Shown here one piece after another: positions 11,258 to 63,258 of a DNA stretch of 64,000 nt. Under the pieces are notes generated by a model that did not search any database, was not told the origin of the DNA, and saw only the letters and a program-made list of their open reading frames with translations. This DNA is from a virus. How positions within the stretch are numbered: position 1 is the stretch's first letter; each line of letters begins with the position of its first letter. The stretch spans positions 1 to 64,000 of the IMG/VR virus record IMGVR_UViG_3300046096_000464; one strand, 5' to 3'. Position numbers and translations under genes: made by a program.

Positions 11258-11345
11258 AGAGCAATTATGGAGTTGCTCTGATTAACATGCTCTGAGAGGG
11301 GTGTAGAATGCTGTGTAACGCACAGAAATTATAAATAAGATTATT
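11258..11345 (+). promoter_or_regulatory. Hairpin, repeat module and late-type promoter
   Basis: AGAGCAA/TTGCTCT hairpin (11258-11279), then the repeat core at 11304-11322 and a perfect T4-type late promoter box TATAAATA at 11330-11337, 25 bases before the next ATG. It terminates nrdB and likely drives the following two genes. Confidence 0.55.
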
Positions 11346-11362
11346 ATTATCAAAATATAAAA

Positions 11363-13639: not shown

Positions 13640-13890
13640 TGATGATAATTAATTACAATGGGGGGGGGGGTAATATCATGCTCTAGCTATCACACATCCT
13701 TTGCGGAGGATGTTTAACGAATTTATTAAATTTAATAATGACCTTCTAATTGATTTTAGAAGGTCATTATTTTTATGATTTGACACTAGTACTCATATTT
13801 ATAGTTTTTGTGCGTTGTAGAGCATTTTAGCGATGTCTGGCAATACATTAATAACTGTGTTATAATGATTATATAGTTTATATTAATAAA
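13640..13890. repeat. Composite intergenic module, reverse copy, plus promoter
   Basis: Non-coding. In order: an 11-base G run (13660-13670), a CATCCT/AGGATG hairpin, an AT palindrome (13723-13739), terminator AATGACCTTCTAA/TTAGAAGGTCATT (13737-13768), a minus-strand TATAAATA box (13796-13803), the reverse module core (13811-13829), and a plus-strand promoter TGGCAA-17-TATAAT (13838-13866). It is the clearest complete copy of the module on the reverse strand. Confidence 0.75.
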
Positions 13891-18932: not shown

Positions 18933-18956
18933 TTCTGATAAACATATCAGACATAC

Positions 18957-19031
18957 GTTGATAGGGGGTTAGAATGCCCTACAACGCATGACAACTTAAA
19001 TAATGACTACTAGTACTAAATCATAAAACTA
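18957..19031 (+). repeat. Composite intergenic module, forward copy
   Basis: Core at 18970-18988 preceded by GTTGATAGGGGG, which can pair with CCCTACAAC, then ATGACTACTAGTAC and an AAATCATAAAA tail directly before ATG 19032. Confidence 0.75.
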
Positions 19032-19284: not shown

Positions 19285-19947
19285 ATGACCATAGAATTGG
19301 ATTTTTGGAATAACCAGCATTACGAAAGAATAGATATTGATGGGGTGCGGCATTATGACATATCTGGTCAATATTACCCATCAGTTACTAGTATAGTTGG
19401 GGAATTTGGTAAGGATAAATTAAACAAATGGAGGAAACGAGTAGGAGAAGTAGAAGCGCAACGAATATGTGATGTCGCTTCTGCCAACGGTACTTATATT
19501 CATCACTTAGCAGAACAATATCTATTGGGTAATCCAATAGATCATAAAGATTCTACTGGATTACAAAAGATGGTATTTGGTAAATTTAAAGAGTCTATCA
19601 ATAAGATCTCTAAAGTACATTTGCTTGAACATACTTTATATTCGCATAAACTTAAATTGGCGGGAACTGTTGATTGTGTTGGCTATTACAATGGTGTATT
19701 GTCTGTGATTGACTTCAAGACAAGCAAAAAAGAAAAACCAATTGAATGGATTGAAAATTATTTTGTACAAACTTGTATCTATGCTATGTGCATTTATGAG
19801 ATGTATGAAATATGGATTTCACAAATTGTATTATTGTTCGCATGTAGTGATCTTACCACACCAATTGTTGTAAAACAAATTGATCGCGAACTTATAGAGT
19901 TAACCAAAAAATATTATTATCATTATAAAAATAATCATGCTAAATAA
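19285..19947 (+). CDS. RecB/Cas4-like PD-(D/E)XK exonuclease
   Basis: 220 residues. YYPSVTSIVGEF (substrate-entry motif), HHLAEQYL (motif I helix, His-Leu-Ala-Glu), LAGTVDCVGYYNGVLSVIDFKTSKK (motifs II and III: Asp, Asp-x-Lys) and FVQTCIYAMCIYEMY (QhxxY motif) are all in order. Such exonucleases are common in T4-type cyanophages and process DNA ends in recombination or host-DNA breakdown. The ATG lies just after an AT palindrome (19267-19283). Confidence 0.85.
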   Translation: MTIELDFWNNQHYERIDIDGVRHYDISGQYYPSVTSIVGEFGKDKLNKWRKRVGEVEAQRICDVASANGTYIHHLAEQYLLGNPIDHKDSTGLQKMVFGKFKESINKISKVHLLEHTLYSHKLKLAGTVDCVGYYNGVLSVIDFKTSKKEKPIEWIENYFVQTCIYAMCIYEMYEIWISQIVLLFACSDLTTPIVVKQIDRELIELTKKYYYHYKNNHAK

Positions 19948-19960
19948 AAAAGGAATAGAT

Positions 19961-20197
19961 ATGTTACTAACAGATACACTACTTATTGCGGACAAATTTA
20001 ATAATATTATCGAATTTAATCGACATAAATTTGATAATTATCTAGAAACAATTCTCAATTATTGTATCGAGTATAATATGGAAATGATCCACGTTAAAAA
20101 ATTATTGAATCCGCAGATTTTGTCCAAAATGACAGCAGAATGCGAATCGGATAATTTAATCACTAGAACATCAAATACAGTATCACTGTTCGATTAG
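19961..20197 (+). CDS. 33: Late-transcription coactivator (gp33-like)
   Basis: 78 residues from ATG 19961, chosen over 19937 because AAGGA stands 8 bases before it. The pattern YLETILNYCIEYNMEMIHVKKLLNPQILSKM...N...RTS matches the short late-promoter accessory proteins of T4-type cyanophages. Position directly before gp59 and gp32 supports it (in T4 these genes are also adjacent). It would bridge host RNA polymerase to the sliding clamp at TATAAATA late promoters, several of which are visible here. Confidence 0.7.
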   Translation: MLLTDTLLIADKFNNIIEFNRHKFDNYLETILNYCIEYNMEMIHVKKLLNPQILSKMTAECESDNLITRTSNTVSLFD

Positions 20198-22689: not shown

Positions 22690-22757
22690 TGATACCAGTA
22701 GTCATATTTATAGTTTTCCTGCGTTGTAGGGCATTCTAGTCCCCTATCAACGCATAT
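22690..22757 (-). repeat. Composite intergenic module, reverse copy with late promoter
   Basis: Minus-strand core at 22720-22738; TGCGTTGATAGGGG on that strand can pair with CCCTACAACGCA. The TATAAATA at 22705-22712 points toward gp53, showing that modules carry promoters. Confidence 0.75.
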
Positions 22758-22777
22758 TAATACCCGTTTAATTCTAC

Positions 22778-25991: not shown

Positions 25992-26347
25992 ATGAGACAT
26001 TTCAATTCGATGCTCAATCTTTGGCAATTTGATCGACCTCACCATGATTCAATGTATGTCAAACTATTAGTGGTAATAGCTATTTAATACAAATTTGTTT
26101 ACCAAGAATAAATAAACTTGTAAGTTTTGGTTCTAAAGATCTTAACTACCTTCAAAATCTGCATTACCAATTTGCTACTAAATCAGGATTAGTTACTTCT
26201 GAACGATATCTCCAAGAACTACCAAACTGGCTACCTGACCATAATATCCAATTTACTCCAAAACATCAGAACAAACTAGAACAATTGATTGAAGCGCACA
26301 TAGTAAATCAACTTATGTGGGATAAGCCAATTATCCTCACTAAATAA
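25992..26347 (+). pseudogene. Degraded HNH homing endonuclease
   Basis: Fragments in differing frames match the intact family: start-like NLWQFDRPHHDS, then (after a large deletion of the HNH core) RINKLVSFGSKDLNYLQNLHYQFATKSGLVTSERYLQELPNW and a C-terminus near LMWDKPI. A TGTGCTATATT promoter relic lies at ~25955. This explains most of the 460-base gap between the divergent operons; nothing else is seen there. Confidence 0.8.
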
Positions 26348-27290: not shown

Positions 27291-27316
27291 TCCCCCTCTA
27301 ATTAATTAGAGGGGGA
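27291..27316. terminator. Terminator hairpin
   Basis: TCCCCCTCTAATT/AATTAGAGGGGGA, a 13-bp perfect stem after the gp26/51 frame and facing the convergent giant gene. Confidence 0.75.
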
Positions 27317-27317
27317 T

Positions 27318-27374
27318 TATCATATTTATGATTTTCGTGCGTTGAGGGGCATATTAACGGCATCTGAGATTATA
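27318..27374 (-). repeat. Composite intergenic module, reverse copy
   Basis: Core variant at 27338-27356 (TGCGTTGAGGGGCATATTA) with a TATTTATG box; it abuts the stop codon of the minus-strand giant gene. Confidence 0.65.
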
Positions 27375-30074
27375 CTAGACGAAAATACTGTCCGTAACAT
27401 CTCCACGTATACTAGATATTGCCGTGAATCTGTGCAAATCAGAGGAAAAATTGAAATTTGCGGTGGAATACACAGTTTTATTAGCAGTATTGATGACATC
27501 ACCTCCGATGATTGTATTGCTGTTTATTGGATTCGCAGATAGCGTAGGGAGTGGAGTAACTTTAGGGACAGTTTTGTATGGTGTATTGGGTGTTGAAAGT
27601 GGGGTAACTTTAGGGACAGGGTTATATGATGGAGAATTGAATGTGGGGGGGGTTGGGACTGGTGTATATACTGGGGATATATTTTTTAATTTAGTGCTCT
27701 TTTTCTTACCACTGCCACTATTAGGAGTCATACTTTTCTTGCCAGTACCACTGCTATCTGGATTATCCATTATAGTTTCCATATTTACATTAGGTAGTGG
27801 AGTTACTTTCGGAACAGGATTATATCCACTGGGAGTATCTTTGTATGTTAATTTGTTTTGTTCTGGAATAGGTTCTATATCTTTACCTTTACCTAACCCC
27901 AACATTTGTGTAAGAGTAGTAAATGCCCCACCTACTTTTCCATAATCAATATTGCGTGTAGTAGCTACTGGAGCAACAGGAGTAGGAGTAGTATTTGTAG
28001 GATTTGTAGTAGGGGTACCGAGAGCAGTATTATTATTATTATCTAATAATCTTACGGCTTGGGCAAATTTTAATACTTCGCCATTTTTGCCATTACTGCC
28101 ACTAGTTCCTGTATTTATTCTGGTTCCAACTTTTTTACTATGGTGCCAATATCTCCCATCTCCCAAATATATGCCAACGTGGGTTATTTCTCCATCATTT
28201 TTTATTCCATTTATACCAGCATAGGTATCTTTCCACTGAACAATATCCCCACGTTTTATTTTAGCTTTATCATATATTATCTGATTTGGGGCACCAAAAC
28301 TGTTTGCTCTTGCCGGATTAGTTTGTTTTCCTATACCCGTAAGGGCAAAATCTGCTGGAGTATCTGTTATTCCCATATCAATATTTAATTTTTTTCCTAT
28401 ATTTCTGACGGAATTTGCACATTGTACTGGTATGCCTTTATATAATCCTAAAGTTTTTTCCGCAGTACTAGCAATTTTTTCATTTATATCAGATACTACC
28501 CCCCCCTTACTATATCCATTTACCCCCATACTTCCATCAGTTTCTAATACATTACTCGCCATATTAGGTACATCATATCCCTTATCAATAGCTTCCTTTA
28601 TCCTAATACTGGTTAAATTTTTATTGGTCTTGGTGGCTGGAGTATCATATGGAATTACAAAACTACTGTCATTGGTTTTATGCTTACTCACGTATTCGCT
28701 ACCATGTCCAATAAAACTAGTACTTTTGCCCCCATTTAATGATACCGGATATCCATTATAACTACCACTAATCCAACCACTACCTTTACCAGATACACTA
28801 CCACCAATAGACTTAGTGGGTAATGGTGTGTCACTTGGAATTTTACTAATAAAGGCATTTAATATATCTGCTAATAATCCTCTAACTGTTGTGTCATTAG
28901 AACTTTGGAATGTACCTTCTCCGCCTACACTATCTATATTGGGATTAGATGTACCTATTATCTTATCTAAACTGTGATTATTGTTTGTAGATGGACTGAT
29001 TTTTCCTAGGTGCAGTTCAGTTTTTGTATCTCCTATGGGAACATCAAACATCTTCCCTATGCTATTGATTAGTGGAAATAATGTGTTACTAGAATCTGGA
29101 TTGTCTTTCATGGAAGATTTCAATATACCAACAATGCTACTTCCTATAATAGAAAATGGCAATTTCATTAAATCATGAAATTTTGGTGCGATGCTTTTTA
29201 TATCCTTATTAAAAGTTTCATTATTAGTGACTCCAGTTAATAATGAATTTAATGGTTTAATATTATTTTTTTGTGATGTATTTTCTACCACTCCACCTTT
29301 GGCGAGTTTTGGTAAATTTGGATTTATATCTTTTTTAGTGGAGTCGGGGTTAGTTAGATTAACTAATGATTGTGGTTGAACTGGTGTTTCTGGTACAGTT
29401 GGTTGACTAAAAATTTCTGGGTTTGGTTCAGATTTTTGTGTTGGTGCTAGATCAGTTACACCTTGTTTTATCGTTTTGTTCGCAGCTTCTACTGATTTTT
29501 CTGCAACACCACCTAAATTTTTATTGATTCCTTCTAATAATCCATTAAACGCTTTACTTATAGTTTTTGGTGTGTCTGTTATTATCTTACCAATGCTATA
29601 TAAAGGAGAAACCAATACTTTAATAAATCCGACTGTACCATTAAAAAAATCTCCAAATACTTTACCAAGCTTGAGTAGATTAGATATACTACCTCCTACC
29701 CACCAAAACACCCCATCAACAAAATTTAATATAAACTTGCCGATGTTATAAAATCCCTTCAGGATATTAGCTAGTTTTTTTGTATTTTTTGGATTTGCGA
29801 CCCATTCTGCAATTTTATATGCCGCAAATAGTGTTCCAATTTTTCCGATAAAGTTTAGGAAGTCACTAATTATCCCTCCCGATTTTTTTGATTCTCTGTC
29901 GTACTTTGTGTTGTACGTTTGTTTTGCAATATTTTCTTCTTTTTCTGCGGTTTTGCTTTGGTATTTTTCCTTTTTTTTATTTCTGTATTCGTAATCTTTT
30001 TGTTCAAGTGATATTAGTTTATCAATATTTTTATTTAATTTTTCTATCTGTGGTATACTGATGTTAATGGACAT
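27375..30074 (-). CDS. Tape-measure-like tail protein with CHAP/NlpC-type hydrolase
   Basis: 899 residues. Residues 1-70 are charged helix; 70-190 hydrophobic, tape-measure-like (FLNFIGKIGTLFAAYKIAEWV); 200-540 low-complexity with KLAKGGVVEN. Residues ~545-665 form a Cys-His amidase-type domain: PVQCANSVRNIG supplies Cys and ITHVGIYLGDGRYWHH the His. The C-terminal 150 residues hold repeats of YNPVPKVTPLP and then VIGGDVI. It shares its N-terminal layout and a NIDYGKVGGAFTTLTQMLG segment with the divergent gene at 30159, so they are paralogues. A minus-strand TATAAATA box at 30102-30109 fits late expression. Confidence 0.8.
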   Translation of the reverse strand: MSINISIPQIEKLNKNIDKLISLEQKDYEYRNKKKEKYQSKTAEKEENIAKQTYNTKYDRESKKSGGIISDFLNFIGKIGTLFAAYKIAEWVANPKNTKKLANILKGFYNIGKFILNFVDGVFWWVGGSISNLLKLGKVFGDFFNGTVGFIKVLVSPLYSIGKIITDTPKTISKAFNGLLEGINKNLGGVAEKSVEAANKTIKQGVTDLAPTQKSEPNPEIFSQPTVPETPVQPQSLVNLTNPDSTKKDINPNLPKLAKGGVVENTSQKNNIKPLNSLLTGVTNNETFNKDIKSIAPKFHDLMKLPFSIIGSSIVGILKSSMKDNPDSSNTLFPLINSIGKMFDVPIGDTKTELHLGKISPSTNNNHSLDKIIGTSNPNIDSVGGEGTFQSSNDTTVRGLLADILNAFISKIPSDTPLPTKSIGGSVSGKGSGWISGSYNGYPVSLNGGKSTSFIGHGSEYVSKHKTNDSSFVIPYDTPATKTNKNLTSIRIKEAIDKGYDVPNMASNVLETDGSMGVNGYSKGGVVSDINEKIASTAEKTLGLYKGIPVQCANSVRNIGKKLNIDMGITDTPADFALTGIGKQTNPARANSFGAPNQIIYDKAKIKRGDIVQWKDTYAGINGIKNDGEITHVGIYLGDGRYWHHSKKVGTRINTGTSGSNGKNGEVLKFAQAVRLLDNNNNTALGTPTTNPTNTTPTPVAPVATTRNIDYGKVGGAFTTLTQMLGLGKGKDIEPIPEQNKLTYKDTPSGYNPVPKVTPLPNVNMETIMDNPDSSGTGKKSMTPNSGSGKKKSTKLKNISPVYTPVPTPPTFNSPSYNPVPKVTPLSTPNTPYKTVPKVTPLPTLSANPINSNTIIGGDVINTANKTVYSTANFNFSSDLHRFTAISSIRGDVTDSIFV

Positions 30075-33642: not shown

Positions 33643-34971
33643 ATGCAGTTTGTTGGGGATTACTCATTAACCAATGTATTTTTATCAAACAAAGATAAAA
33701 TAATAGATATCAAGGAGATGATCGCAGAGATCAATATATATGAGTCGGTCAATAGTGTAGCTATCAGTGCAGATCTTACTATATCTGATAATAAGAATAT
33801 ATTAGAATCATTTCCTATAGTTGGTGGGGAATTTATTACTATATATGTTGGTACAAATAATGACAAATATGTATTAGATTTTGTAATATATAAAATAGAT
33901 TCAAAAGTAATCTCAGAAAAAAGTCAAGTATACATTTTACGACTTTGTACTAAGGATACCATCACTAATGAAACTAGTAGGTTTAGTAGAAGATTCAAGA
34001 ATAAATTTAGTGATGAGGTGACTAAAGACCTACTAAAAAATTATATTAAAACTACTAAAAAGATTGATGTTGACCAAACCATTTACCCACTAAATTTTGT
34101 ATCACCTAATTGGCGGGTGTTCGATCTTATTACTTGGATGGCTAGGAAAAGTACAAGTATAAAGAATGTTCAATCTGCTGGATACCTTTTTTATGAAGGA
34201 CTTGATTCTTACCACTACAAAAGTATAGATAATTTGTTTGCTCAAACAAGTAAGAATGAGAACATACCATTTACTTATGTTCCTGCAAAAACAAGTACGG
34301 ATGCTGATAAAAACTATAGAATCGTTAAATATGTGAGCGATTCATATTTTGATGTATTAGAACAATCCAGGATGGGGGCACTGTCCCATTTTAATGAGCG
34401 AATAGATTTTACTAGTAGAACCAAAACTCTTACAAAAAGTACACTTAGTAGTATTTGGAAACACCAATCACACTTAGGTGGTGGTAATATTCCAGCACAG
34501 ATAAACAATTTATTATTTGCTAATCCGTCAAGAGTAATATATACTCCAATAATTAATCAATTGTTTGGTGAATCTATTGTGTATGACGGAGACGACGATA
34601 AAATTAATAAGCTAATAAATCGCAGTGTATATAGATATACATCGATGGATTTCTTTACTATTAATATTGAGATCGCTGGTAATTTGGGTATTAGAGCGGG
34701 TGCTGTTTACACACTGAATATCCCTTCCCCCAACCCAGATTCAAATGCCAACAGGAATAGACAAACAGATAATGATCTTAGTGGCAATTGGATGTGCCAC
34801 AGCATAAAGACATCAATAAACCGTACTTCTACTACCAGTATAGTAAGATTATGTAGGGACAGTGTAGGTGGAACAAAAATTCCTATTATAGGTACTTCTG
34901 CTAAAAGTATTAATAATGTAGATAGAAGTATTATTGATACTGATATTAGGGAACTTAAAAATATAGTCTGA
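33643..34971 (+). CDS. 27: Baseplate central hub protein (gp27-like)
   Basis: 442 residues. IIDIKEMIAEINIYESVNSVAISADLTISDNKNILESFPIVGGE and FVSPNWRVFDLITWMARKS...AGYLFYEG are conserved in gp27 hubs of T4-type phages. gp27 forms a trimeric torus that receives gp5 and links to the tail tube. gp5 is the next structural gene, though a homing endonuclease lies between them. The ATG directly follows an AT palindrome. Confidence 0.87.
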   Translation: MQFVGDYSLTNVFLSNKDKIIDIKEMIAEINIYESVNSVAISADLTISDNKNILESFPIVGGEFITIYVGTNNDKYVLDFVIYKIDSKVISEKSQVYILRLCTKDTITNETSRFSRRFKNKFSDEVTKDLLKNYIKTTKKIDVDQTIYPLNFVSPNWRVFDLITWMARKSTSIKNVQSAGYLFYEGLDSYHYKSIDNLFAQTSKNENIPFTYVPAKTSTDADKNYRIVKYVSDSYFDVLEQSRMGALSHFNERIDFTSRTKTLTKSTLSSIWKHQSHLGGGNIPAQINNLLFANPSRVIYTPIINQLFGESIVYDGDDDKINKLINRSVYRYTSMDFFTINIEIAGNLGIRAGAVYTLNIPSPNPDSNANRNRQTDNDLSGNWMCHSIKTSINRTSTTSIVRLCRDSVGGTKIPIIGTSAKSINNVDRSIIDTDIRELKNIV

Positions 34972-35084
34972 GCGGGGTCTAGAATGCTCTACAACGCATG
35001 ATAACTCAAATAATGACTATTAGGACAACTCATAAAAATAATGACCTTCTAATTGATTAGAAGGTCATTTTATTAAATTTAATA
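34968..35084 (+). repeat. Complete composite module, forward copy
   Basis: Core 34980-34998, ATGACTATTAGG block, terminator AATGACCTTCTAA/TTAGAAGGTCATT (35040-35069) and AT palindrome 35071-35084. It starts at the gp27 stop codon and ends 2 bases before the homing-endonuclease stop, showing the full order core-terminator-palindrome. Confidence 0.8.
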
Positions 35085-35086
35085 AA

Positions 35087-35782
35087 TTAGAACATAATAG
35101 GTTTATCCCAAGTAAGCTGATTTTCTATGTGTGTAGCAATTAATTGGTCTAGTTTTATCTGATGTTCTGGTTTGAATTGAATGGTAGAATCTGGCAACCA
35201 ATTGTGAACTTCTTTGAGGTATCGTTCTGGACTGACTAATCCAGATTTTACTCCAAACTGATAATGCAAGTTCTGGAGATAATTCATATCTTCAGAACCA
35301 AAATTTATTCTCTCACTATTTCTAGGCATATGAATTTGTGTTCTATAGCTACTACTACCATTATTATATATTGCACCAATAGGTAGTCCAGATGACTTCT
35401 TTCGTAATACTGTATTAAACCAATTAGTAACTACTTCTAAATTAGTAAGTTTATTATTACTAGGATCGCCATCTATATGATTAATTACATAGTTATTATT
35501 AGTCTTGACTCCAAATACTAATTCATGAATATATGTAGTTTGTCCATCTTTATGAGTATGAAATCTACCTCCACTATCAGGATTAAAATTATATAGTTTT
35601 AACAATTCTACTTTATCAAGATCTATAGAATTAGTATATAATTTACCAGATTTAGTATTGAGTAGATGTAATAGATCATCTACAAATAATTGATTATATG
35701 TAAGTTTTTGATTACTTTTATTGAGATTATGGTGAGGTTGATCGAATTGATAGAGATTTAAAATTTTACAGAAATGAATCAT
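35087..35782 (-). CDS. HNH homing endonuclease, intact family member
   Basis: 231 residues. HNH core: YVINHIDGDPSNNKLTNLEVVTNWFN (His, Asn, His-like residues). The N-terminal 70 residues (MIHFCKIL...FDQPHHNLNKSN) and C-terminal DNA-recognition half (YLQNLHYQFGVKSGLVSPERYLKEV, TWDKPIMF) define a family with decayed copies throughout the window. It sits antisense between gp27 and gp5, within the baseplate cluster. Its promoter is at 35809-35814 (minus-strand TGTGTTATAAT). Confidence 0.85.
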   Translation of the reverse strand: MIHFCKILNLYQFDQPHHNLNKSNQKLTYNQLFVDDLLHLLNTKSGKLYTNSIDLDKVELLKLYNFNPDSGGRFHTHKDGQTTYIHELVFGVKTNNNYVINHIDGDPSNNKLTNLEVVTNWFNTVLRKKSSGLPIGAIYNNGSSSYRTQIHMPRNSERINFGSEDMNYLQNLHYQFGVKSGLVSPERYLKEVHNWLPDSTIQFKPEHQIKLDQLIATHIENQLTWDKPIMF

Positions 35783-35808
35783 TTTAATACAATATAAACT
35801 GTATAATC

Positions 35809-35818
35809 ATTATAACAC
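35809..35818 (-). promoter_or_regulatory. Extended -10 promoter of the homing endonuclease
   Basis: Minus-strand TGTGTTATAATGATTATA, TATAAT at 35809-35814, with a short leader to the ATG. Relics of the same promoter-leader mark decayed copies at 3643, 13861 and 38479. Confidence 0.55.
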
Positions 35819-35858
35819 AGATTTCATAAATATGAATAGAATTACCAAATCATTGTAA

Positions 35859-38318
35859 ATGAATCCCAACTTCAATCACACAAATAACTTAACCCAAAGC
35901 AACTTTTTCTATGGCGTAATCGAAAGTACATCTGATGCCAGTGGGTTGCATAGAGTAAAAGTAAGGATCGTCGGTGTACATAGCGATGATAGAAAAATGT
36001 TACCTACTGAGGATCTACAGTGGAGTTTAGTCGCCAACAGTACAAACTCCACCGGAAAGCATACACTTAAACCAGGGAATTTTGTTGTATGCACATTTCT
36101 TGATGCAGATATGCAACAAGCTATTGTGCTATTTTCATTATTAAGTAAAATCAAACAAAAGGGGGTAGTACTGAACAGTATTCAAGATGCCCAAACCCCA
36201 GGGGGAGTATTCATAAACTACAATTCTCCGCCATCGCCATCTACAGATAGCGATCAATCTATATATACAGGAACTATACCAGTAGAAACAATAGCCAAAT
36301 CTCAAGATGGGGCAAATATAGGTAATCCGTTCGGCAAGAACACCCAAGCAATCGCAGCTAATGGTAAAAATGGTGGTACAGGAATGTTTGCCGATATCGA
36401 ACGAGAAATCATCTCGTTGGGTAATATATTCAAACACGTAGTGTTGTATGATACTGACGACATTACCTTATCCGCAGACATAGATAGCGAAATAGGTATC
36501 ATACCACTGAGTAGAGTAAACAACATTCCAAAATCAGGAATTATAAAAATCGGCGACGAAATAATCACTTATTCTGGTATAGCTGATACAGGATTGTCAG
36601 GGCAAATATTGAGAGGAAGTCCAGATAGAAATAGTATAATATCTACCAAAAAAGCAGAACATAAAGCTGGAGACATAGTAACTTGGATATACCCAAAAGT
36701 AAAGAACGACAAAGCACCATTATTTTATAGTCAACTCACCGGACAAGCTATAGATTTCGCCAAAGAGATCAAAAAAAGGATGTCAGTAGTCAATGGATAC
36801 ATTACATGGTTAGTAAATAAAATTTCTAGTCAGATTGTATCTACATTAAGTGAATTAATTGCTGGCATAACATTAGCACTCAAAACTCCTACTGCATTGA
36901 TTGGTAAGATCATAGTAGATGCACTACTATTGGTTCTATCTCAAGTATTATGTTCTTTTGATAAGGCAACTGTTGACTCATTAGTACTATCAATAGAGCA
37001 ATATATTACAGATCAAGTAACTACATTAATTAGGAGTTTTTATGAAAATGCCACAGCTATTCAACAGTTCATCAGTGATTGTACTAATAAAATATTTGAT
37101 GCCGTATTACAATTTGCTAGTATTATTCAATCTATTGGCAACCTAATTACAAATATTACAAGGATATTCCCTGGTGCTAGTGGCGAAGCTATTAAGGTAA
37201 TCGACACTAATTCAGAACCGGATACTTTGAATAAGGATAAGGTAAATGGTATATCATTTCCGGATCTAACCAATACTGCAAATATCGTAGCAAAATTATT
37301 AAATTTTTTAGGATTGGGTTGTAAGCAAGAAGTTGGGGAAAATATTAATGTTCCTGAATGTGTGACTACTGGATATTTCCCACCAGCTAATTTATGCGAT
37401 CCTAATCCTGACCTTATATCAGCACTGAATAATTTGTGGCGACCTTTACCTCAGTTTATCACTAATTATGACTTTGGTGGTGGTCTGAAGGCTGAGTATG
37501 ACGGTACGCCAGGGGTAGAGAGGACGTTATTGTCATCTCCTGCGGGTACTTATACAGAAGTGTTCAATGATGGAACTAGTCGCACAGTAATTTCCAAAGA
37601 TTCGTATACACTCATTTTGAATGATAACAATATCGAGATAAAAGGCAATTGCAATTGGAAAGTTGATGGTAATTTCGGTTTAAAAGTATCTGGGAATCTA
37701 GATTTGGAGGTTGGTAAAGAATTACGAATGTCTATCGGTGGTAGTAGCAAGATTACATATGGCGGTTCACATAATACAATTTACGGTGGGGACAGTGTGA
37801 TAAATGCGACAAATAAGTTGAATATAACTGGAAGTCAAATTGGGTTAGTTGCTTCTGGTGTAGTAGACATCAAAGGTGGAGTATTCGATGTACTTACCAG
37901 TGAGATCAATCTTACATCATCTGGTAGTTTGAGTTTGATTTCATTGCATAGTAATTTTGTTAGTGGGGTATCGCATAAGGAGATACATAGCGGAACCGTA
38001 GATAAACTTGTGGTTGGTTCGCAGAAAAAGATTAATCTTGGTAGTTACGTTGGTGACGCTATAGGAAATCATCAAACTAATTATATGAGTACTAAGACCT
38101 CTAACGTGGCAGGAATTCATACAATTACTAACAATTCTTTGTACACCATTAGTAGTAATATTAAAACAGAAAAAGTAGAGCAATTAAGTACATTTAATAC
38201 AAAAGTACTACAAATTAACGCAAATAATAAAATTGAGACAATCAACGGTAGTAGTCTTAACTATGCAAATGGCTTGGCATTGCGTCAAACTAGTGGGGGT
38301 ATAAACATGGATTCCTGA
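35859..38318 (+). CDS. 5: Baseplate hub / tail spike protein (gp5-like)
   Basis: 819 residues. Residues ~15-100 are the gp5/VgrG OB-fold (FFYGVIESTSDASGLHRVKVRIVGVHS, LKPGNFVVCTFLD). The middle is hydrophobic and helical (270-400). The C-terminal 250 residues are a repetitive beta-helix needle (NCNWKVDGNFGLKVSGNLDL, NIEIKG, KITYGGSHNTIYGG). T4 gp5 carries a lysozyme domain between these parts; none is visible here, and wall-cleaving domains are instead in the two tape-measure-like proteins. Pairs with gp27. Confidence 0.85.
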   Translation: MNPNFNHTNNLTQSNFFYGVIESTSDASGLHRVKVRIVGVHSDDRKMLPTEDLQWSLVANSTNSTGKHTLKPGNFVVCTFLDADMQQAIVLFSLLSKIKQKGVVLNSIQDAQTPGGVFINYNSPPSPSTDSDQSIYTGTIPVETIAKSQDGANIGNPFGKNTQAIAANGKNGGTGMFADIEREIISLGNIFKHVVLYDTDDITLSADIDSEIGIIPLSRVNNIPKSGIIKIGDEIITYSGIADTGLSGQILRGSPDRNSIISTKKAEHKAGDIVTWIYPKVKNDKAPLFYSQLTGQAIDFAKEIKKRMSVVNGYITWLVNKISSQIVSTLSELIAGITLALKTPTALIGKIIVDALLLVLSQVLCSFDKATVDSLVLSIEQYITDQVTTLIRSFYENATAIQQFISDCTNKIFDAVLQFASIIQSIGNLITNITRIFPGASGEAIKVIDTNSEPDTLNKDKVNGISFPDLTNTANIVAKLLNFLGLGCKQEVGENINVPECVTTGYFPPANLCDPNPDLISALNNLWRPLPQFITNYDFGGGLKAEYDGTPGVERTLLSSPAGTYTEVFNDGTSRTVISKDSYTLILNDNNIEIKGNCNWKVDGNFGLKVSGNLDLEVGKELRMSIGGSSKITYGGSHNTIYGGDSVINATNKLNITGSQIGLVASGVVDIKGGVFDVLTSEINLTSSGSLSLISLHSNFVSGVSHKEIHSGTVDKLVVGSQKKINLGSYVGDAIGNHQTNYMSTKTSNVAGIHTITNNSLYTISSNIKTEKVEQLSTFNTKVLQINANNKIETINGSSLNYANGLALRQTSGGINMDS

Positions 38319-38319
38319 T

Positions 38320-38443
38320 AACATACGCTGAGAGGGGGATAGGATGCCCCTCAACATATGAAAAACAGAAATATGACTACTGGCATCAAATCATAAAAAT
38401 AATGACTTCCTAATTAATTTTAGAAGGTCATTATTAAATTTAA
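38320..38443 (+). repeat. Complete composite module, forward copy
   Basis: Core variant 38340-38358 (AGGATGCCCCTCAACA, GAGGGGG pairing with CCCCTC), ATGACTACTGGCATC, terminator 38401-38432 and palindrome 38431-38443. Closest relative of the copy that splits nrdA. Confidence 0.8.
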
Positions 38444-39097: not shown

Positions 39098-39197
39098 ATA
39101 CTCACTCTACATTTAGTGTAGGGTGAGTATTTTTAATAAATAGGAATATACATATTAAATTTAATAAACCCGTTCTAGAATGCGTTAGAACGGGTTT
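39098..39197 (+). terminator. Two hairpins flanking an AT palindrome
   Basis: ATACTCAC(T)CTACA/TGTAG(G)GTGAGTAT at 39098-39130 with a following T run, palindrome 39153-39166, then AAACCCGTTCTA/TAGAACGGGTTT at 39166-39197. The first is a good terminator for the small genes. Confidence 0.65.
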
Positions 39198-39208
39198 ATT
39201 TTTATATT

Positions 39209-39262
39209 TTAATACTAGTAGTCGTATTTATGGTTATCATGCCTTGTAGGGTATACTAAAAC
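39209..39262 (-). repeat. Composite module, reverse copy (degenerate)
   Basis: ACTAGTAGTCGTATTTATGGTTATCATGCCTTG: minus-strand late-like CATAAATA and core variant 39240-39258. Confidence 0.6.
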
Positions 39263-39357
39263 CATCTTAAAGTATAATCGGTTTGCTCCAATATAAATTA
39301 TATAATAATTATAACATAAATATAGTTAATGCAATTAAATATATATATACATATAAT

Positions 39358-44762: not shown

Positions 44763-44879
44763 ATTATTAAATTTAATAAACCCCCTCTAGATGATTCTAG
44801 AGGGGGTTTATTTATGATTTGATACTAGTGTCATTATTCTAGTTTCTATGCTCTACAAGTCATCCTAGACCCCTCTCAG
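44763..44879. repeat. Palindrome, strong terminator and module copy
   Basis: AT palindrome 44763-44779, terminator AAACCCCCTCTAGA/TCTAGAGGGGGTTT (44778-44809) and a module copy (GATACTAGTGTCATTATT... to CCCCTCTCAGCAC, 44818-44880). Confidence 0.75.
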
Positions 44880-45180
44880 CACATAATAGGTTTATCCCAT
44901 GTAAGCTGATTTTCTAAGTGTGCTTCTATTAATTGATCTAGTTTTGTTTGATGTTCTGCTGGGAATACAATATTAGGATCTGGCAACCAATTATCTACTT
45001 CTAATAGATATCTTTCTGGACTGACTAAACCAGATTTTACTCCAAACTGGTAATGAATGTTTTGTAAGTAATTAATTAAGATCTTTTGAACAAAAATTTA
45101 TTCGTTTCTTTATTCTTGGTCTAGCAATTCGTGTTTCATAGCTATTAATATATTGTCAGAATACTCTAGAATACTTTAGA
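44880..45180 (-). pseudogene. Decayed C-terminal half of HNH homing endonuclease
   Basis: Minus strand matches the intact family from the SYETRIA/RPRI strand through SYLQNIHYQFGVKSGLVSPERYL and LPDPNIVFPAEHQTKLDQLIEAHLENQLTWDKPI, with a frameshift near 45075 and no N-terminal HNH half. With the preceding repeats it explains the 475-base gap between fibre genes. Confidence 0.8.
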
Positions 45181-45228
45181 ATCGATAGTAACTATAAATA
45201 TGAATAGAAATATTAAATTTAATAAGAC

Positions 45229-46140
45229 ATGGCTGCTATACAATTATTAAGAAAAAGTAGTACTAATGGAGTAATACCTACTACTGCTCAATTATTATTA
45301 GGAGAATTGGCGATCAATACATTTGAGGGGAGATTATTCAGTAAAAAAAATAACGGCATAGAATCAATCACTGAGTTTGTAAGTACTACCGGAAATTTTA
45401 TAGGTACAATAGATACGATACCCATTGGTAGAGGTACTGGAGGATTAGCAGGAAATATTAGAATAGGTATCGGAGCATTAGCAAATAATACAGGAAGTAC
45501 CTCAAATATAGCGGTAGGAACAAATGCACTAGCCAGTCTTAATGTGGTTAATACTGGCAATAATATTGGATTGGGACAGAATACCCTAACTGCCAATATT
45601 AGTGGTACGGATAATATAGCAATAGGTACAGGCGCATTATCCGCCAATACAGTAAGTGGTGGTTTGGCAATAGGTGTCAATGCAGGTAGTAACAGTACTA
45701 TTGGTGCGGGAAATATATTTTTGGGAAACAATACTACATTAGCTGCTGCTGCTAACACTAATTCAATCGTAATTGGCAATGGTACGGCTGGATTAGGTAA
45801 TAATACTACTGTCATCGGGACTACTGCTACGACATTTACTAAATTGTGGGGAAAATTATCACTAGATAGTACAATTGTTACTGTTGCTGCTACTACATTT
45901 ACTATTAATAAACCAGCAGGAATTCTTCTTTGTTCTGTGGGCAACGCAATCATTACCGTAAATAATAGTTTGGTGACAGTTAATAGTATAGTGTCAGTAC
46001 AGTTAAGAAATATTCCTTCCCCGACTACTGCTGTTATCCGTAATGTGGTAGTCAATAATGGGTCATTTACCATCAACTTTGCGGCAACTCCTACAGTCAC
46101 CCAACCAAGAATATCATTTATTGTTATTGAGACAATCTAA
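45229..46140 (+). CDS. Tail fibre with YadA-like head repeats
   Basis: 303 residues. N-terminal AIQLLRKSSTNGVIPTTAQLLLGELAINT is a fibre attachment motif. Residues ~80-200 carry repeated NIAIGTGAL/GLAIGVNAG/NIFLGNNT units of the left-handed beta-roll seen in trimeric adhesin heads. The C-terminal 90 residues form a different beta domain. A TATAAATA box (45193-45200) and an AT palindrome (45211-45224) precede the ATG. Confidence 0.8.
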   Translation: MAAIQLLRKSSTNGVIPTTAQLLLGELAINTFEGRLFSKKNNGIESITEFVSTTGNFIGTIDTIPIGRGTGGLAGNIRIGIGALANNTGSTSNIAVGTNALASLNVVNTGNNIGLGQNTLTANISGTDNIAIGTGALSANTVSGGLAIGVNAGSNSTIGAGNIFLGNNTTLAAAANTNSIVIGNGTAGLGNNTTVIGTTATTFTKLWGKLSLDSTIVTVAATTFTINKPAGILLCSVGNAIITVNNSLVTVNSIVSVQLRNIPSPTTAVIRNVVVNNGSFTINFAATPTVTQPRISFIVIETI

Positions 46141-46215
46141 ATATACGCGGAGAGGGGTCTAGACTGCCTTACAACGCACGAAAACTCCAAATATGACTAC
46201 AAGTACCAGATTACC
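46141..46215 (+). repeat. Composite module, forward copy
   Basis: GGAGAGGGGTCTAGACTGCC with core 46160-46178 and AAATATGACTACAAGTACC; terminator part absent. Confidence 0.75.
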
Positions 46216-47289: not shown

Positions 47290-47318
47290 CTATTCCCTAA
47301 TGTTCTCTCAGATGCCCC

Positions 47319-47548
47319 TAGAATGCCTTGTAAGGTCTTTTGGGGCATTTTGATATAAATCCATATTAAATTTAATACCATGTTGCTGTAGCCAATTCTC
47401 GTTAGACTTAATGTTATTACAAATCTTTCAAAAGAAATATCAAAAAAGATCGAATATCCTCTTGACATTCGATATTCGATAATGTTAGCTTTAGTGCATG
47501 GGGAAAACAAACACCCCAACTAACCACTAAACAGCTAAACGAAATTAT
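47319..47548 (+). promoter_or_regulatory. Module copy, palindrome and operator-like promoter of parB
   Basis: Module core 47319-47337, AT palindrome 47364-47377, then ATCGAATATC (47449-47458) and its perfect inverse GATATTCGAT (47471-47480) bracketing a consensus TTGACA (47462-47467). A weak -10 would fall near 47485. The arms flank the -35 box like an autoregulatory operator. 69 bases separate it from the parB ATG. Confidence 0.6.
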
Positions 47549-48778
47549 ATGTCAATCGAAGTCGTAAACCATACTACAGCAACAGCAACAGGTAAAGTAA
47601 AAAGTCCTTCTGCCTACCTCAAATCTATTACAGACGCAAAGAAAATTGGCGAATTTTTCACAATTCCTTTATCAGCCTTAGAAATATACCCAAACTTCAA
47701 CAAGCGCACTGACTATAAACTCGATGAATTGAAATTATTTATTGAACAAAACAGTGTTAGTGCATTACCAGCTATCAAGCTAATGTATATCGATGGCAAA
47801 TTGTATGTAGAAGAAGGGCATCGGCGACAAAAAGCTTGTGTTGAACTGGACTTGCCCCCAGAAACCCCAATCAAAGTATTTATTGGGGAACCATCATCTT
47901 CCGCAGAAAGACTAGCGCGCCAAATTTCCAGTAATTCTGGGGAGAAATATAATTTTGTAGAGATGGTGGCGGTGGTTAAAGAGTTGATTCAAAAGGAAGG
48001 TATGACCCAGACTCAAGTAGCCAAGATGATTGGTAAAACTCAAGGTTCTGTAAGTCAGATGTCTTTGTTCTTCAATTACAGCAATCTCTTGCTGCTCGAA
48101 ATTCAACATGGTTCCATCAAGTATACACGAGTAATGGAATTACAAAAATCTGGTTATACCGAAGAACAGATTTTAGAAGTAATCAAGAAAAGTACTCATA
48201 ATTCTACTTCAGATAAAGCACCAGTACCACCAATAAATCCTGATTCTGATAAATTAAACCAATTGTTAGGCGACGATCATCCGATAGATGATAAAAATAC
48301 ATCTGGTGGTAAGCGGAAAGGTAGTAAATCTGGTGGTAAGCAGAAAGGTAGTAAATCTGGGGGTACGCGGAAAGGGGATGAACCCGTAGAAGAGGATCTG
48401 ATTAATGCGGAATCCCTAGAAAACCCAGAAGAGGATCTGATTAATGCGGAATCCCTAGAAAACTCAGAAGAGGATCTGATTAATGCGGAATCCCTAGAAA
48501 ACTCAGAAGAGGATCTGATTAATGCGGAATCCCTAGAAAACTCAGAAGATTATGATGACGAAGAACTAAAAAAAGCGGTAATACTCAAAGATAGCGGTGT
48601 TGCTCCCAATAAACCAACTGCAACAGAGACTAGTATTAAAAAAGTTAATGTAAAATTGGTGTTGGTCAATTTCTTCATTGATGCCAAGATTGTTGATAAT
48701 GGCGATGGTACTGTTTCATACAACATCACCCAAGAACAGCACGCTGAGTTTCAGCGTAATTGTATGAATATCCAGTAA
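47549..48778 (+). CDS. parB: ParB/Noc-like DNA-binding protein with acidic repeats
   Basis: 409 residues. Residues 38-130 are a ParB/Srx-like N-terminal domain (FTIPLSALEIYPNFNKRTDY, LYVEEGHRRQKACVEL with the GxxR-type motif, SAERLARQISSN). Residues 150-190 are the ParB helix-turn-helix (GMTQTQVAKMIGKTQGSVSQMSLF). A KGSKSGG basic linker is followed by four near-identical 13-residue EEDLINAESLENS repeats (about 48389-48547). No ParA is visible. It may regulate transcription or segregate replicons. Its promoter carries an inverted repeat that could be its own site. Confidence 0.85.
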   Translation: MSIEVVNHTTATATGKVKSPSAYLKSITDAKKIGEFFTIPLSALEIYPNFNKRTDYKLDELKLFIEQNSVSALPAIKLMYIDGKLYVEEGHRRQKACVELDLPPETPIKVFIGEPSSSAERLARQISSNSGEKYNFVEMVAVVKELIQKEGMTQTQVAKMIGKTQGSVSQMSLFFNYSNLLLLEIQHGSIKYTRVMELQKSGYTEEQILEVIKKSTHNSTSDKAPVPPINPDSDKLNQLLGDDHPIDDKNTSGGKRKGSKSGGKQKGSKSGGTRKGDEPVEEDLINAESLENPEEDLINAESLENSEEDLINAESLENSEEDLINAESLENSEDYDDEELKKAVILKDSGVAPNKPTATETSIKKVNVKLVLVNFFIDAKIVDNGDGTVSYNITQEQHAEFQRNCMNIQ

Positions 48779-49316: not shown

Positions 49317-49465
49317 ATTGGGATAAGCCAATTATGCTCTCAGATCCGTCTAGAGTGCCCCTCAACGCACGAAAACTAGAATAATGACTTACTATATCAA
49401 ATTACAGCTGTCGTGCCTTACAGAGCATTCTAGAGGGATATTAAATTTGATATAGTAAGTCATCA
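49317..49465. repeat. Two opposed module copies within a 20-bp inverted repeat
   Basis: Begins with a homing-endonuclease C-terminal relic (WDKPIML, 49320-49337), then a forward core (49351-49369) and a reverse core (49413-49431). ATGACTTACTATATCAAATT (49384-49403) is repeated in perfect inverse at 49444-49463. The inner 40 bases hold the reverse core. With the promoter below, this covers the 395-base gap after 49177. Confidence 0.8.
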
Positions 49466-52886: not shown

Positions 52887-52954
52887 TGCCAGATCGATCT
52901 CACTCCTCTCTACTGTGCCTAAAATGCCCTATAAGACGGATCTAACTGATTTTA

Positions 52955-53125
52955 GGTATATCTCACCTACACCAAAAATACAATGTATAAATTGTAGGTG
53001 AAAACAAATGGCTGAGACACAATGTAATCTCTAAGCCATTATGCCCAATCTCTTGAAATAGCTTGCTATTAGATTCGATTGGTGAGATAGTAAAGAGGTA
53101 AGCAACAAATCGAACCATATAAAAA
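52955..53125 (+). promoter_or_regulatory. Early cassette leader, copy with promoter
   Basis: CAATGTATAAATTGTAG, a hairpin AATGGCTGAGA/CTAAGCCATT, and promoter 53063-53091 (TTGCTA-17-GATAGT), then GAGGTAAGCAAC. Same order in the cassettes at 55190, 56690 and 59080. Confidence 0.65.
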
Positions 53126-55106: not shown

Positions 55107-55189
55107 TTATTAAATTTAATATCTAGATCGATTATCCGATCTAGATATCATCTCTATGACCGCTAGAATGCCCCAGAACTGCTCTAATC

Positions 55190-55350
55190 ATCAAACTAGA
55201 CTCGTACTCGTCTCAATCATTACGACACTGTATAAATTGTAGTAGGAAACAAATGGCTTAGACACAACGTAATCTCTAAGCCATTATACTGAATCTCTTA
55301 AAATAGCTTGCAATTAGATCGGATTAGTGGGATAGTTAAGAAGTCGAGCA
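55190..55350 (+). promoter_or_regulatory. Early cassette leader and promoter
   Basis: CATTACGACACTGTATAAATTGTAG, AATGGCTTAGA/TCTAAGCCATT hairpin, promoter TTGCAA-17-GATAGT at 55308-55336 and a GAGCAAACAACA leader to ATG 55366. Confidence 0.65.
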
Positions 55351-56538: not shown

Positions 56539-56635
56539 CACTACAAATTATTAAATTTAATAATACAAAAGCCGTTCTCATCAGATCGGCTTTTTTGGTT
56601 TATAGCAGTTCTACTCGATCCTTAACATCATCTCT

Positions 56636-56845
56636 AAGGTGCCCAGAATGCCCTATAACGAATCAAACACTCAAACTAGACTCATAATCACCTTACTAAT
56701 TACGACACTGTATAAATTGTAGTGATACACAAATGGCTTAGACCTATCGTAATCAATACGTCATTATGCTTAATCTCTTAAAATAGCTTGCAATTAGATC
56801 GCATTAGTGGGATAGTTGAGAGGTAAACAAATAGCCGCTAATCAA
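56636..56845 (+). promoter_or_regulatory. Module-core relic, cassette leader and promoter
   Basis: Core-like GCCCAGAATGCCCTATAACG (56641-56660), CACTGTATAAATTGTAG, a degenerate AATGGCTTAGA hairpin and promoter 56788-56816 (TTGCAA-17-GATAGT). Confidence 0.6.
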
Positions 56846-57778: not shown

Positions 57779-57952
57779 CCCTACTATCTATTACCTTTAA
57801 TAACACAGCCGATCTGATTAAGATCGGCTGTTTTTTTGTTCTTAATTTACGCGATCGTTCTCACTACTCTATTACTATCTTCTCTATTACCGCTATTATG
57901 CCATCAGATTACGACATTGTAGTGAGAAACATAAGCTATTATGCTTAACTTC

Positions 57953-58013: not shown

Positions 58014-58340
58014 ATGACTACTTCTACTCATTATGTATTACTAACTCATTGTCTAGAATATTCCTATAATGACTACGAATCAGATGAATCAGATGAATCA
58101 TACTACACATACGAATTGATTGTACCACACTCATTCGCTGATGTGGTAGAAACTGCTTTAGATTATGGTAATGTAAGCTACAGTTGGAACTGCGAATATA
58201 ATGATTGCCAACACTATGTTTTAGATGAGACTCCAGCAGATGACAATGAATGGAAAAAAGTGACAGATCGATTATCGATGATAATGTCTGAATTTTGTAT
58301 AGATTACCATCATGACCTAATCTGCTACCATATTTATTAA
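58014..58340 (+). CDS. Hypothetical acidic early protein, 108 aa
   Basis: 108 residues, extremely acidic (YESDESDESYYTYELI, DETPADDNEWKK), with several His and Cys. The first residues MTTSTHYVLLTH resemble MTTSTTTLELID of the 60041 gene, which shares its promoter and leader; the downstream parts differ. Candidate DNA-mimic or sequestering protein, by composition only. Confidence 0.6.
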   Translation: MTTSTHYVLLTHCLEYSYNDYESDESDESYYTYELIVPHSFADVVETALDYGNVSYSWNCEYNDCQHYVLDETPADDNEWKKVTDRLSMIMSEFCIDYHHDLICYHIY

Positions 58341-58722
58341 CTTTAATACCACAGCCGATCTTAATCAGATCGGCTGTTTTTTTGTACCTGAATTCACCAC
58401 AAAATACTACATTATTTGGTAGGCACACTCTATTATAACAATTTGTTATAACATCAAATATTAATGAATGTTATAATAAATTGTTATAACATTCATTTTG
58501 TAGTATTGTTTGGGTGGATATAGAAATCACTCCAAACCCATACACAGCACTACATTCAGCCATTTCAAAAACTACAAAAGTGACACCACTTTGACACCAC
58601 TTTTTGTAAGACTTATGGTAAAATCTACTATAACTTCTTACATATTAGGCTACAAATCTACTACACATTATTAAATTTAATAGTCTACTGAGCGATCGTT
58701 CTCAATGCTAGGTCAACCCCTT
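58341..58722. other. Non-coding region with terminator, inverted and direct repeats
   Basis: Terminator 58351-58381; inverted repeat AATGAATGTTATAA/TTATAACATTCATT (58463-58497) with two further TTGTTATAACA boxes; tandem TGACACCACTT (58580-58601); palindrome 58667-58682. No convincing gene on either strand. The clustered TTATAACA boxes could be protein-binding sites. Confidence 0.55.
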
Positions 58723-58950: not shown

Positions 58951-59251
58951 ACAAATTACAGTTTATTGCAGTATGTGGTATGACTGGAGATCGATCGCTA
59001 CCACGCCGATCCCTAATATGCTCTGAGAGGTGCCTAGAATGCCCTCAGACAGTCCAGACAGTCAATCTAGACATATACTCACTTCACTCATTACGACAAT
59101 GTAGAAATTGTAGTGAGAAACAAATGGCTGAGAGACAATGTAATCCCTCAGCCATTATGCCTAATATCTTAAAATTGCTTGGAATTGGATCGGGATTAGT
59201 GGGATAGTAGAGAGGTAAGCAAACAACAACCGATAAGGGAACATAATACAA
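58951..59251 (+). promoter_or_regulatory. Module-core relic, cassette leader and promoter
   Basis: TCTGAGAGGTGCCTAGAATGCCC (59022-59044), CAATGTAGAAATTGTAG, perfect hairpin AATGGCTGAG/CTCAGCCATT (59124-59157), promoter TTGGAA-18-GATAGT (59179-59208) and AAGGGAACATAA before ATG 59252. Confidence 0.65.
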
Positions 59252-61125: not shown

Positions 61126-61929
61126 ATGAGAAAATTATATCAACAAATTACAGAATTTTATGAATTGCAAGAAGCATTGAGCAAAATGCCATCATCGGAT
61201 ATAATTTCCGATGAAGGATATCATCAAACAAAACTTACGCATTATCAGGGAGATGCGGAATTTACACCAAGTAGATATCACCAAGATTATTCAGGGGTTA
61301 CACATAGTGTAGCGTGGATGAATAAAAAAAAGGGTAACAGCAGTTCGATAACAGACAAAAAGAACACATTACATGATGCAGCACATTTACATAATCATTA
61401 TATACAGAATAACACAGATATTGGAGATGTAGTCAGATCTGATACTATGCCAGATGCGGATGGCGAAGGAAACAAACGAGCAAGAATATATGGAAAAATG
61501 GCAGGATTTGGGGGACTAAATAAAGCGGGGGAACAATATGGAATCGTAAAAAAACACGCAGACGATCATCCAGAAGAACACAAACGAGGAAAAAAATATT
61601 TACATCCGTTAGAACATGATGAAATAAACGCGCATGGAGATAAACCTAGTGCTGGTTCGACTGATGGAAAAATTCGTACTATGAGTAGAGATTATGGAGA
61701 AGGGGGGAAATTACATATCACTCGAAGAAATAGAGTAATGCACGGAACTGCAATAAATGCAGATGGGAGCGAATCCGAACATATGACAGATACAGAATCC
61801 GATCATCCAGACAATGAAAAACATTTAGCAGAACTACATAGTCATCACAAAGATTATGTAAATTCTAAACAAAAATCTAAAACTCCAGCAATTGATGCGC
61901 TAATTACGAAGTTAAAAACTAAAAAATAG
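61126..61929 (+). CDS. His-rich protein, paralogue of 11821-12384
   Basis: 267 residues. Shares with the 187-residue paralogue the opening MRKLYQQITEFYELQEA, YHQDYSGVTHSVAWM, GDVVRSD...DADGEGNKRARIYGKMAGFGG, EQYGIVKKHADDHPEEHKRGKKYLHPLEHDEI, then adds ~90 His/Asp-rich residues (SDHPDNEKHLAELHSHHKDY). No known fold seen. Presence of two copies in different genome regions implies a virion-related or dosage-dependent role (inferred). Confidence 0.75.
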   Translation: MRKLYQQITEFYELQEALSKMPSSDIISDEGYHQTKLTHYQGDAEFTPSRYHQDYSGVTHSVAWMNKKKGNSSSITDKKNTLHDAAHLHNHYIQNNTDIGDVVRSDTMPDADGEGNKRARIYGKMAGFGGLNKAGEQYGIVKKHADDHPEEHKRGKKYLHPLEHDEINAHGDKPSAGSTDGKIRTMSRDYGEGGKLHITRRNRVMHGTAINADGSESEHMTDTESDHPDNEKHLAELHSHHKDYVNSKQKSKTPAIDALITKLKTKK

Positions 61930-61933: not shown

Positions 61934-62070
61934 ATTATTAAATTTAATAATGACCTTCTAAAATCAATTAGAAGGTCATTATTTTTATAATTTGGTACTA
62001 GTAGTCATTATTTAGATTATCATTCGTTGTAGGGCATCCTAGAGGGGTCTGAGAGCATAATATAGGTTCC
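61934..62070 (-). repeat. Complete composite module, reverse copy
   Basis: Palindrome 61934-61951, terminator AATGACCTTCTAA/TTAGAAGGTCATT (61949-61980), TACTAGTAGTCATT, minus-strand core 62023-62041 and GAGGGGTCTGAGAGCAT. Confidence 0.8.
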
Positions 62071-62071: not shown

Positions 62072-62458
62072 CTAATATGTGTCATTATTAAAAAGAATAT
62101 TATAAATTTGAATGAGTGGAATAAATCTGTGATAATATGTCACAGGGGTACTATTAATCACTTCTACCGTCTTCTGGGTTTGGATTGCCATAAATATCAC
62201 CAACTCTTTGTAAATTATATCGCATTTCAATCTATTTGGGTGTATACAACTTAGAATAGTTTCAAGAACATCAAATGGGGGGTTTGGTGACTGTTCATAG
62301 ATACCATCTTCATTTTCAGTGAATGAGATGAGATGTGAGTGATGAACATAATCGAAGTCTATTTTCTCATCAGCACAAAACTCATGAGGATCCCATATTG
62401 TTCCAATAGAACTGGTTAACAAATGCTGAAATTTGTTATAAAAATCTTGGTATGCCAT
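62072..62458 (-). CDS. Hypothetical protein, tandem duplicate A
   Basis: 128 residues. MAYQDFYNKFQHLLTSSIGTIWDPHEFCADEKIDFDYVHHSHLI aligns along its length with the neighbouring 126-residue protein (MTYTEFYNKFEHLLTNSVGTLWDPHEF). The genes overlap by one base (TGATG), so they are a recent tandem duplication translated together. Conserved HHxH and WDPHEF patches may be functional. No known family. Confidence 0.7.
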   Translation of the reverse strand: MAYQDFYNKFQHLLTSSIGTIWDPHEFCADEKIDFDYVHHSHLISFTENEDGIYEQSPNPPFDVLETILSCIHPNRLKCDIIYKELVIFMAIQTQKTVEVINSTPVTYYHRFIPLIQIYNILFNNDTY

Positions 62459-63205: not shown

Positions 63206-63258
63206 AGTTAATTTGGTGAGAATATGTAAGTGGTGTAGTAAGGCATTCTATGGGCATC

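Follow-up and report, generated by a model that had tools for sequence, protein, structure and literature searches.

A repeated, stop-codon-locked intergenic module linked to HNH endonuclease genes in a T4-like phage

A 68-nt element with the consensus TAATATGCTCTGAGAGGGGTCTAGAATGCCCTACAACGCACGAAAACTATAAATATGACTACTAGTATC, hereafter called the module, was found in 32 copies at gene junctions of a T4-like phage. On balance, the module is probably an inserted intergenic regulatory cassette, which was spread largely together with a multi-copy family of free-standing HNH endonuclease genes and was kept as their tail after decay of the nuclease. The repetition of the module, its insertion state in comparison with a related phage, its linkage to HNH genes, the occurrence of broken HNH genes beside intact modules and the rules of its placement were observed directly and form the basis of this reading.

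The analysed window spans positions 1 to 64,000 of an IMG/VR virus record of 109,315 bp (phage A), which is T4-like according to its tail, baseplate, RNR, ssDNA-binding and gp33-like genes, the gp33-like late co-activator gene being located at 19937-20197. Judging from the sampling series, the repeats and the complementary gene content, IMGVR_UViG_3300046340_000088 is probably a second contig of phage A bearing its head genes, and the 32 module copies are drawn from both contigs. A relative from another metagenome (phage B; contigs 3300037882_001756, _001894 and _002148) was used for comparison and shares 75 reciprocal best hits with phage A in mostly collinear order. Additionally, a third, closer relative (phage C) was represented by the short contig 3300046357_000036. 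A related-locus search with a tail protein as query yielded no relatives.

The core TAGAATGCCCTACAACGCA gave 10 matches at ≤3 mismatches, with 0.00 expected from shuffles, and ATGCYCTACAACGCA gave 17 matches at ≤2 mismatches in the 109-kb record, compared with 0 for the reversed pattern. A 68-nt profile HMM was built from 13 copies and then rebuilt from its own hits. At E<1e-3 it detected 32 copies, 27 of them in the 109-kb contig and the other 5 in the second, and 24 copies are full length; the window alone contains 18 copies at this threshold, with both strands represented, and the best score against reversed DNA was only E=4.5. A preliminary description of this DNA had reported a module repeated in both orientations and had proposed a genome-wide alignment of all copies. 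The profile recovers the copies listed there on both strands, and the alignment yields a 68-nt element whose 32 copies are beyond chance. At 56644 the match is marginal (E=0.05), and the copies at 47319, 59033 and 63271 consist of the 5′-half only (47298-47335 (+), 59014-59045 (+) and 63238-63271 (-)). The module is composed of block 1, TAATATGCTCTGAGAGGGGTCTAGAATGCCC, and block 2, TACAACGCACGAAAACTATAAATATGACTACTAGTATC, and block 1 is also found without block 2, as at 59014, where the repeat block attached downstream is a different one, of the D1 family. Conservation within the module is highest in the inner core CTAGAATGCCCTACAACGCACGATAACT; the core is conserved at the DNA level between phages A and B and might, as a guess, be a protein-binding DNA site. 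The AT palindrome TTAAATTTAA, previously regarded as part of the module, turned out to be a separate, more abundant element, which is not module-specific; phage A has 52 copies of it, often placed 5-8 nt ahead of an ATG, and phage B almost none. The stop-codon locking, the HNH link and the fractured nrdA gene described below were not mentioned in the preliminary description.

The module was not found in the 50,697 phage records searched, and the IMG/VR searches showed it only in these related phages. An origin as a host or general phage repeat was rejected, a 128-nt consensus matching the phage collection only once, weakly and by chance; matches of degenerate patterns in bacterial genomes and most 17-mer matches in IMG/VR were likewise attributed to chance. 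Terminal inverted repeats, as known for transposons or MITEs, common to the copies were not found in the module alignment, and the only near-repeat at the nrdA junction, TAATATG/AAATATG, does not amount to a target-site duplication. A conserved short peptide, MTTS(I)KS, starting from the module ATG was considered and dismissed, because substitutions judged by eye were mostly non-synonymous. Decay of the late box in terminator-type copies, also counted by eye, was dropped as the copies are too few for a claim.

The modules are located at gene junctions, and the location between genes or at gene ends noted earlier proved to be stricter than stated. In 13 of 30 copies the upstream stop codon ends within module nt 0-14, compared with 5% expected at intergenic positions (p=6e-10, an optimistic value, the HNH-linked copies being related and not independent). 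Two stops are used, TAA at module nt 1-3 and TGA at nt 11-13. The module at 34959-35026 (+; 61.2 bits), for example, contains the TGA stop of the tail gene 33643-34971, the module at 46139-46206 (+) is located at the stop of gene 45229-46140, the one at 27310-27377 (-) at the stop of the endolysin-like gene 27375-30074, and the one at 38319-38386 (+) directly after the stop of the gp5-like baseplate hub gene. Other copies are found at some distance, for instance 51 nt past the nrdB stop (11283-11350 (+)) and 9 nt past the stop of gene 62072-62458 (61995-62062 (-)).

A T4 late-type box, TATAAATA or a variant of it, is part of the full modules; it is intact in only some of them and degenerate in many, such as TCAAATAA in the module at 34959. 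Late boxes, including the module boxes, cluster 33-37 nt before ATGs: the TATAAATA box of module 11283 (11330-11337) lies about 34 nt before the ATG at 11363, and the box at 45193-45200 of module 45146-45213 (+) lies 37 nt before the ATG at 45229 of a structural gene. A late box (22705-22712) is also present in the module between the gp54-like tail tube cap and gp25-like wedge genes (22692-22759 (-)), and the module at 18949-19016 (+) is located 16 nt ahead of gene 19032. The claim that several copies carry a TATAAATA box facing a late gene holds in part: some modules have the intact box, and upstream of genes in phage A the word is biased to the sense strand (24 vs 7, p=0.003), but in the window as a whole it is not enriched (19 seen, 21.9 expected). 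The gp33-like co-activator gene would be in keeping with late promoters in this phage; no gp55 gene was identified.

A terminator had also been assigned to the module. Hairpin arms of 11-12 nt were found in 13 of about 24 full copies, the remainder being without, and their occurrence follows the orientation of the next gene: the hairpin is absent in all nine modules with a co-directional ATG ≤40 nt downstream and present in 9 of 10 modules facing a convergent gene (p=1.2e-4). A terminator-like hairpin AATGACCTTCTAA..TTAGAAGGTCATT at 35037-35074 is located between convergent gene ends next to module 34959, and another at 38398-38435 follows module 38319. The module at 13783-13850 (-), which has TATAAATA, faces a convergent gene end and is next to a hairpin at 13734-13771; module 61995, convergent with gene 61126-61929, has its hairpin at 61946-61983, and in module 27310 the hairpin ATCCCCCTCTAA.. 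overlaps the module. Both the position of the late boxes and this terminator and orientation rule are consistent with a regulatory role of the modules, for which promoter and terminator activity would be predicted.

The comparison with phage B revealed near-empty orthologous junctions, with gaps in phage A and phage B, respectively, of 51 and 1 nt (TAA-T-ATG) between nrdA-N and nrdA-C, 109 and 1 nt between gp54 and gp25, 103 and 4 nt at 46139, 857 and 52 nt at 88025, 373 and 64 nt at 94563, and 496 and 32 nt at 105832. At these sites phage A contains either the module or an HNH gene together with the module. The view of a composite, repeated and inserted element, for which a comparison of gene order in relatives had been proposed, thereby gained support. 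Gain by insertion in the phage A lineage would be the simpler reading than loss in phage B, because searches of other phages did not turn up the module. Other junctions (34959, 38319, 44888, 103446 and phosphoesterase/gp19) are filled by HNH and/or module in both phages; overall, co-occupancy of junctions in phages A and B was not significant (p=0.10). Concerning the exchange of flanked genes, what the comparison showed is insertion relative to phage B.

The nrdA gene of both phages is divided where mobE splits that of Aeh1 (T4-like NrdA residues about 444/452). The first half (4687-7827 (+)) contains a LAGLIDADG-type intein and a second intein-like insert, and the second half (7879-8850 (+)) encodes 323 aa. 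In phage B the halves abut, and in phage A the module between them (7825-7892 (+)) provides the stop of the first half (TAA) and the start of the second (ATG). In Aeh1, an intergenic HNH gene likewise lies beside an essential gene at the same nrdA split position, and the split NrdA enzyme is described as functional (PMC2988022); an HNH gene may once have sat at the nrdA split in the present lineage. Transcription of nrdB in T4 is maintained by a middle promoter that lies between mobE and nrdB (PMC2988022). The present system differs from the T4 mob genes and Aeh1 mobE in that about 13 related copies occur in one phage, and in that a module with a late-type promoter box is still present at loci with a broken HNH gene or none. 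The IC-UTS of phage 44RR, as described, is also similar, being a non-coding intercistronic sequence found where the essential gene 43 is divided (PMC2988022), whereas the module in nrdA belongs to a set of about 30 dispersed copies.

The HNH protein linked to the module has 231 aa, an HNH_3 domain (Pfam PF13392, E=7e-7), matches to PHROG HNH families and the conserved motif NHIDGDPSNN; members of its family, full or partial, number about 13 in phage A and 11 in phage B. At 8 of the 13 phage A loci the module adjoins the HNH stop codon, its first 14 nt being the last HNH codons (shared letters ..CC TATTATGCTCTGA), and gene gaps are common to modules and HNH genes more often than otherwise (8/17 vs 3/39, p=0.0016). 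In the window, a full-length HNH gene (63259-63957 (-)) has the half module 63238 overlapping its stop, and an HNH fragment (44882-45143 (-)) is flanked by two divergent modules, 44821-44888 (-; hairpin 44775-44812) and 45146. Members without an adjoining module are the full-length gene at 35087-35782 (-), which has none at its own stop, a gene lacking the N-terminal part after the primase gene (3637-4164 (+)), at a junction that contains an HNH gene in phage B too, and a fragment at 26069-26341 (+). Phage B also has an HNH gene at the junction of module 38319 and after nrdB.

Most of the eight module-ended HNH genes are broken and the module has survived: fragments are found at 44888, 77886, 94563 and 105832 and a frameshift in the second-contig copy 29911, and the modules beside broken copies still score 44-69 bits. 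The three phages can be compared at one orthologous locus: in phage C an intact module accompanies an HNH gene with 4 in-frame stops, in phage A an intact module accompanies an HNH fragment, and phage B has neither. Moreover, HNH C-terminal codons are retained upstream of two HNH-less modules, 39212-39279 (-; p=0.0007; hairpin 39165-39200) and 49330-49397 (+; probable 3′-end remnant, p=0.004; inverted partner copy 49401-49440); at about 24 of the 26 modules without an HNH gene no HNH remnant was seen. The idea that HNH-less modules mark phage B HNH sites gained no statistical support (1/9 vs 6/47 other gaps, p=0.73). The intergenic HNH genes at 88025, 94563 and 105832 have HNH-free alleles in phage B, and the linked genes appear to behave like free-standing mob endonucleases.

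In phage B, the module is found at only 2 of 11 HNH genes, and the HNH-module junction there uses TAA at nt 1-3, compared with TGA at nt 11-13 in phage A. Since the junction frames differ and so few phage B genes are involved, HNH genes and module may have been joined on two separate occasions, the module having been there first. Several phage B HNH genes are followed by a sigma70-like TTGACT-N-TATAAT, which suggests, at the level of sequence, that such HNH genes generally travel with a promoter for the downstream gene.

According to the preferred explanation, an HNH gene, the module or both would enter a gene junction, where the first 14 nt of the module would supply the stop codon of the upstream gene, viral or HNH, and its last part a late promoter of T4 type, placed about 34 nt ahead of the next start codon; where the next gene is convergent, a hairpin terminator would follow the module instead. 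The junction broken by the insertion would be re-punctuated by the module, and homing would be the engine of spread. The nuclease gene would then decay by stops, frameshift and deletions, and the module would be retained, presumably under selection.

The main rival, which we regard as rather unlikely, is that the module is an autonomous recombination cassette resembling the PeSLs (Arbiol 2010; Comeau 2014), spread by homologous recombination between copies, with genes including HNH shuffled in as passengers or late arrivals. PeSLs are short repeated promoter and terminator cassettes between genes of T4-type phages and were proposed to mediate module exchange (PMC4503421). As far as the cited account describes them, they are the nearest analogue by function, and the resemblance pointed out earlier stands as a functional analogy; they combine an early promoter with a stem-loop (PMC4503421), whereas the full modules have a late-type box, a hairpin only at some copies, and are HNH-linked and stop-codon-locked. 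An autonomous cassette would be favoured by HNH-less copies outnumbering the HNH-linked ones, mostly without HNH remnants, by the 5′-half copies joined to other downstream blocks, by the module being scarce in phage B and by the unlike HNH-module junctions in the two phages, as well as by the phosphoesterase stop, which is followed directly by a module in phage B and by an HNH gene plus module in phage A. It is countered by the sharing of gaps between modules and HNH genes far above chance, and by the HNH fragments and coding remnants adjoining modules; a case of gene swapping at a module pair was not seen.

The DNA-level conservation of the core in phages A and B, beside a late box and unsupported by RNA structure, could alternatively mean that the module holds the binding or homing site of the HNH enzyme itself, the core being kept by repeated invasion or by I-TevI-like autorepression over the late promoter. 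Such autorepression is documented for I-TevI, whose site overlaps a late promoter (PMC2988022), and provides a precedent, and both module-bearing lineages have this HNH family; but an intact core at HNH-occupied loci would leave the phage's own genome cleavable, and 9 of 11 phage B HNH genes have no adjoining core, which makes this explanation improbable. A conserved structured RNA kept at gene ends as a 3′-UTR or leader element is more improbable by far. Some copies fold into strong hairpins (103446, 108701 and 22759), but pairing was 56.7% compared with 57.4% in shuffles, and RNAalifold gave no consensus structure; the RNA reading was rejected because neither covariation nor an Rfam family match was found.

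The preferred explanation, spread of the module largely with the HNH family, links two phenomena usually treated apart, mobile promoter/terminator cassettes and selfish homing genes. Tentatively, and with appreciably less confidence, it can be extended to the idea that homing endonucleases carry a replacement junction, consisting of stops and a phase-specific promoter (of late type in phage A and, it seems, of sigma70 type in phage B), which makes the insertion harmless and is domesticated after the death of the nuclease, so that much of the late-gene punctuation would be such remains; the PeSL cassettes of other T4-type phages might share this HNH-tail origin. The three-phage series of an empty site, a broken HNH gene with module and an HNH fragment with module makes the preferred explanation directly testable. 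If true, it would explain how intergenic homing genes invade compact operons without silencing essential genes downstream, and it would provide a source for the repeated regulatory cassettes in T4-type phages.

The palindrome TTAAATTTAA was found 52 times genome-wide in phage A, the T4-like virus of the window, mostly in intergenic regions (for example at window positions 35080-35092) and often with an ATG 5-8 nt 3′ of it; it is nearly absent from the mostly collinear relative phage B. Besides the module, the 68-nt element repeated at gene junctions, the window contains a second repeat family of about 198 nt, in which the 5′ half of the module is joined to a different conserved block (52902-53099, 55147-55344, 56627-56824 and 59018-59215), as well as 39-bp tandem repeats inside an ORF (48349-48582) with encoded units EEDLINAESLENS. 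Terminator-like hairpins of the form AGCCGATCT..AGATCGGCT are arranged as an inverted pair at window positions 57799-57846 and 58336-58383, and similar hairpins are present in phage B.

In the first half of nrdA (window 4687-7827), a LAGLIDADG-type intein occupies about residues 222-641 and is absent from phage B, while a second, intein-like insert at about residues 854-987 is common to both phages. The nrdB gene (window 9168-11231) carries a large insert at about residues 255-560, for which no Pfam match was obtained; the protein is of similar length in phage B.

Among the HNH genes, a multi-copy homing-endonuclease-type family, broken members were also observed. In a relic at record positions 94563-94830 (L002), an unrelated insert (AAAACCCCTTACGGGGTAATT...), about 130 nt long and richer in GC, takes the place of most of the gene. 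In phage C, a closer relative, the reading frame of an HNH gene (L121:734-1440) followed 3′ by an intact module is interrupted by four stop codons, each of which apparently stands where a glutamine is expected.

The large terminase of phage A seems to be encoded in two parts on opposite strands, an intein-bearing ATPase half and a nuclease half (L002:17557-19968, record 100857-103268, minus strand; L003:1444-2667, record 104544-105767, plus strand), with an HNH gene and a module between them. This arrangement was also found in phage B.
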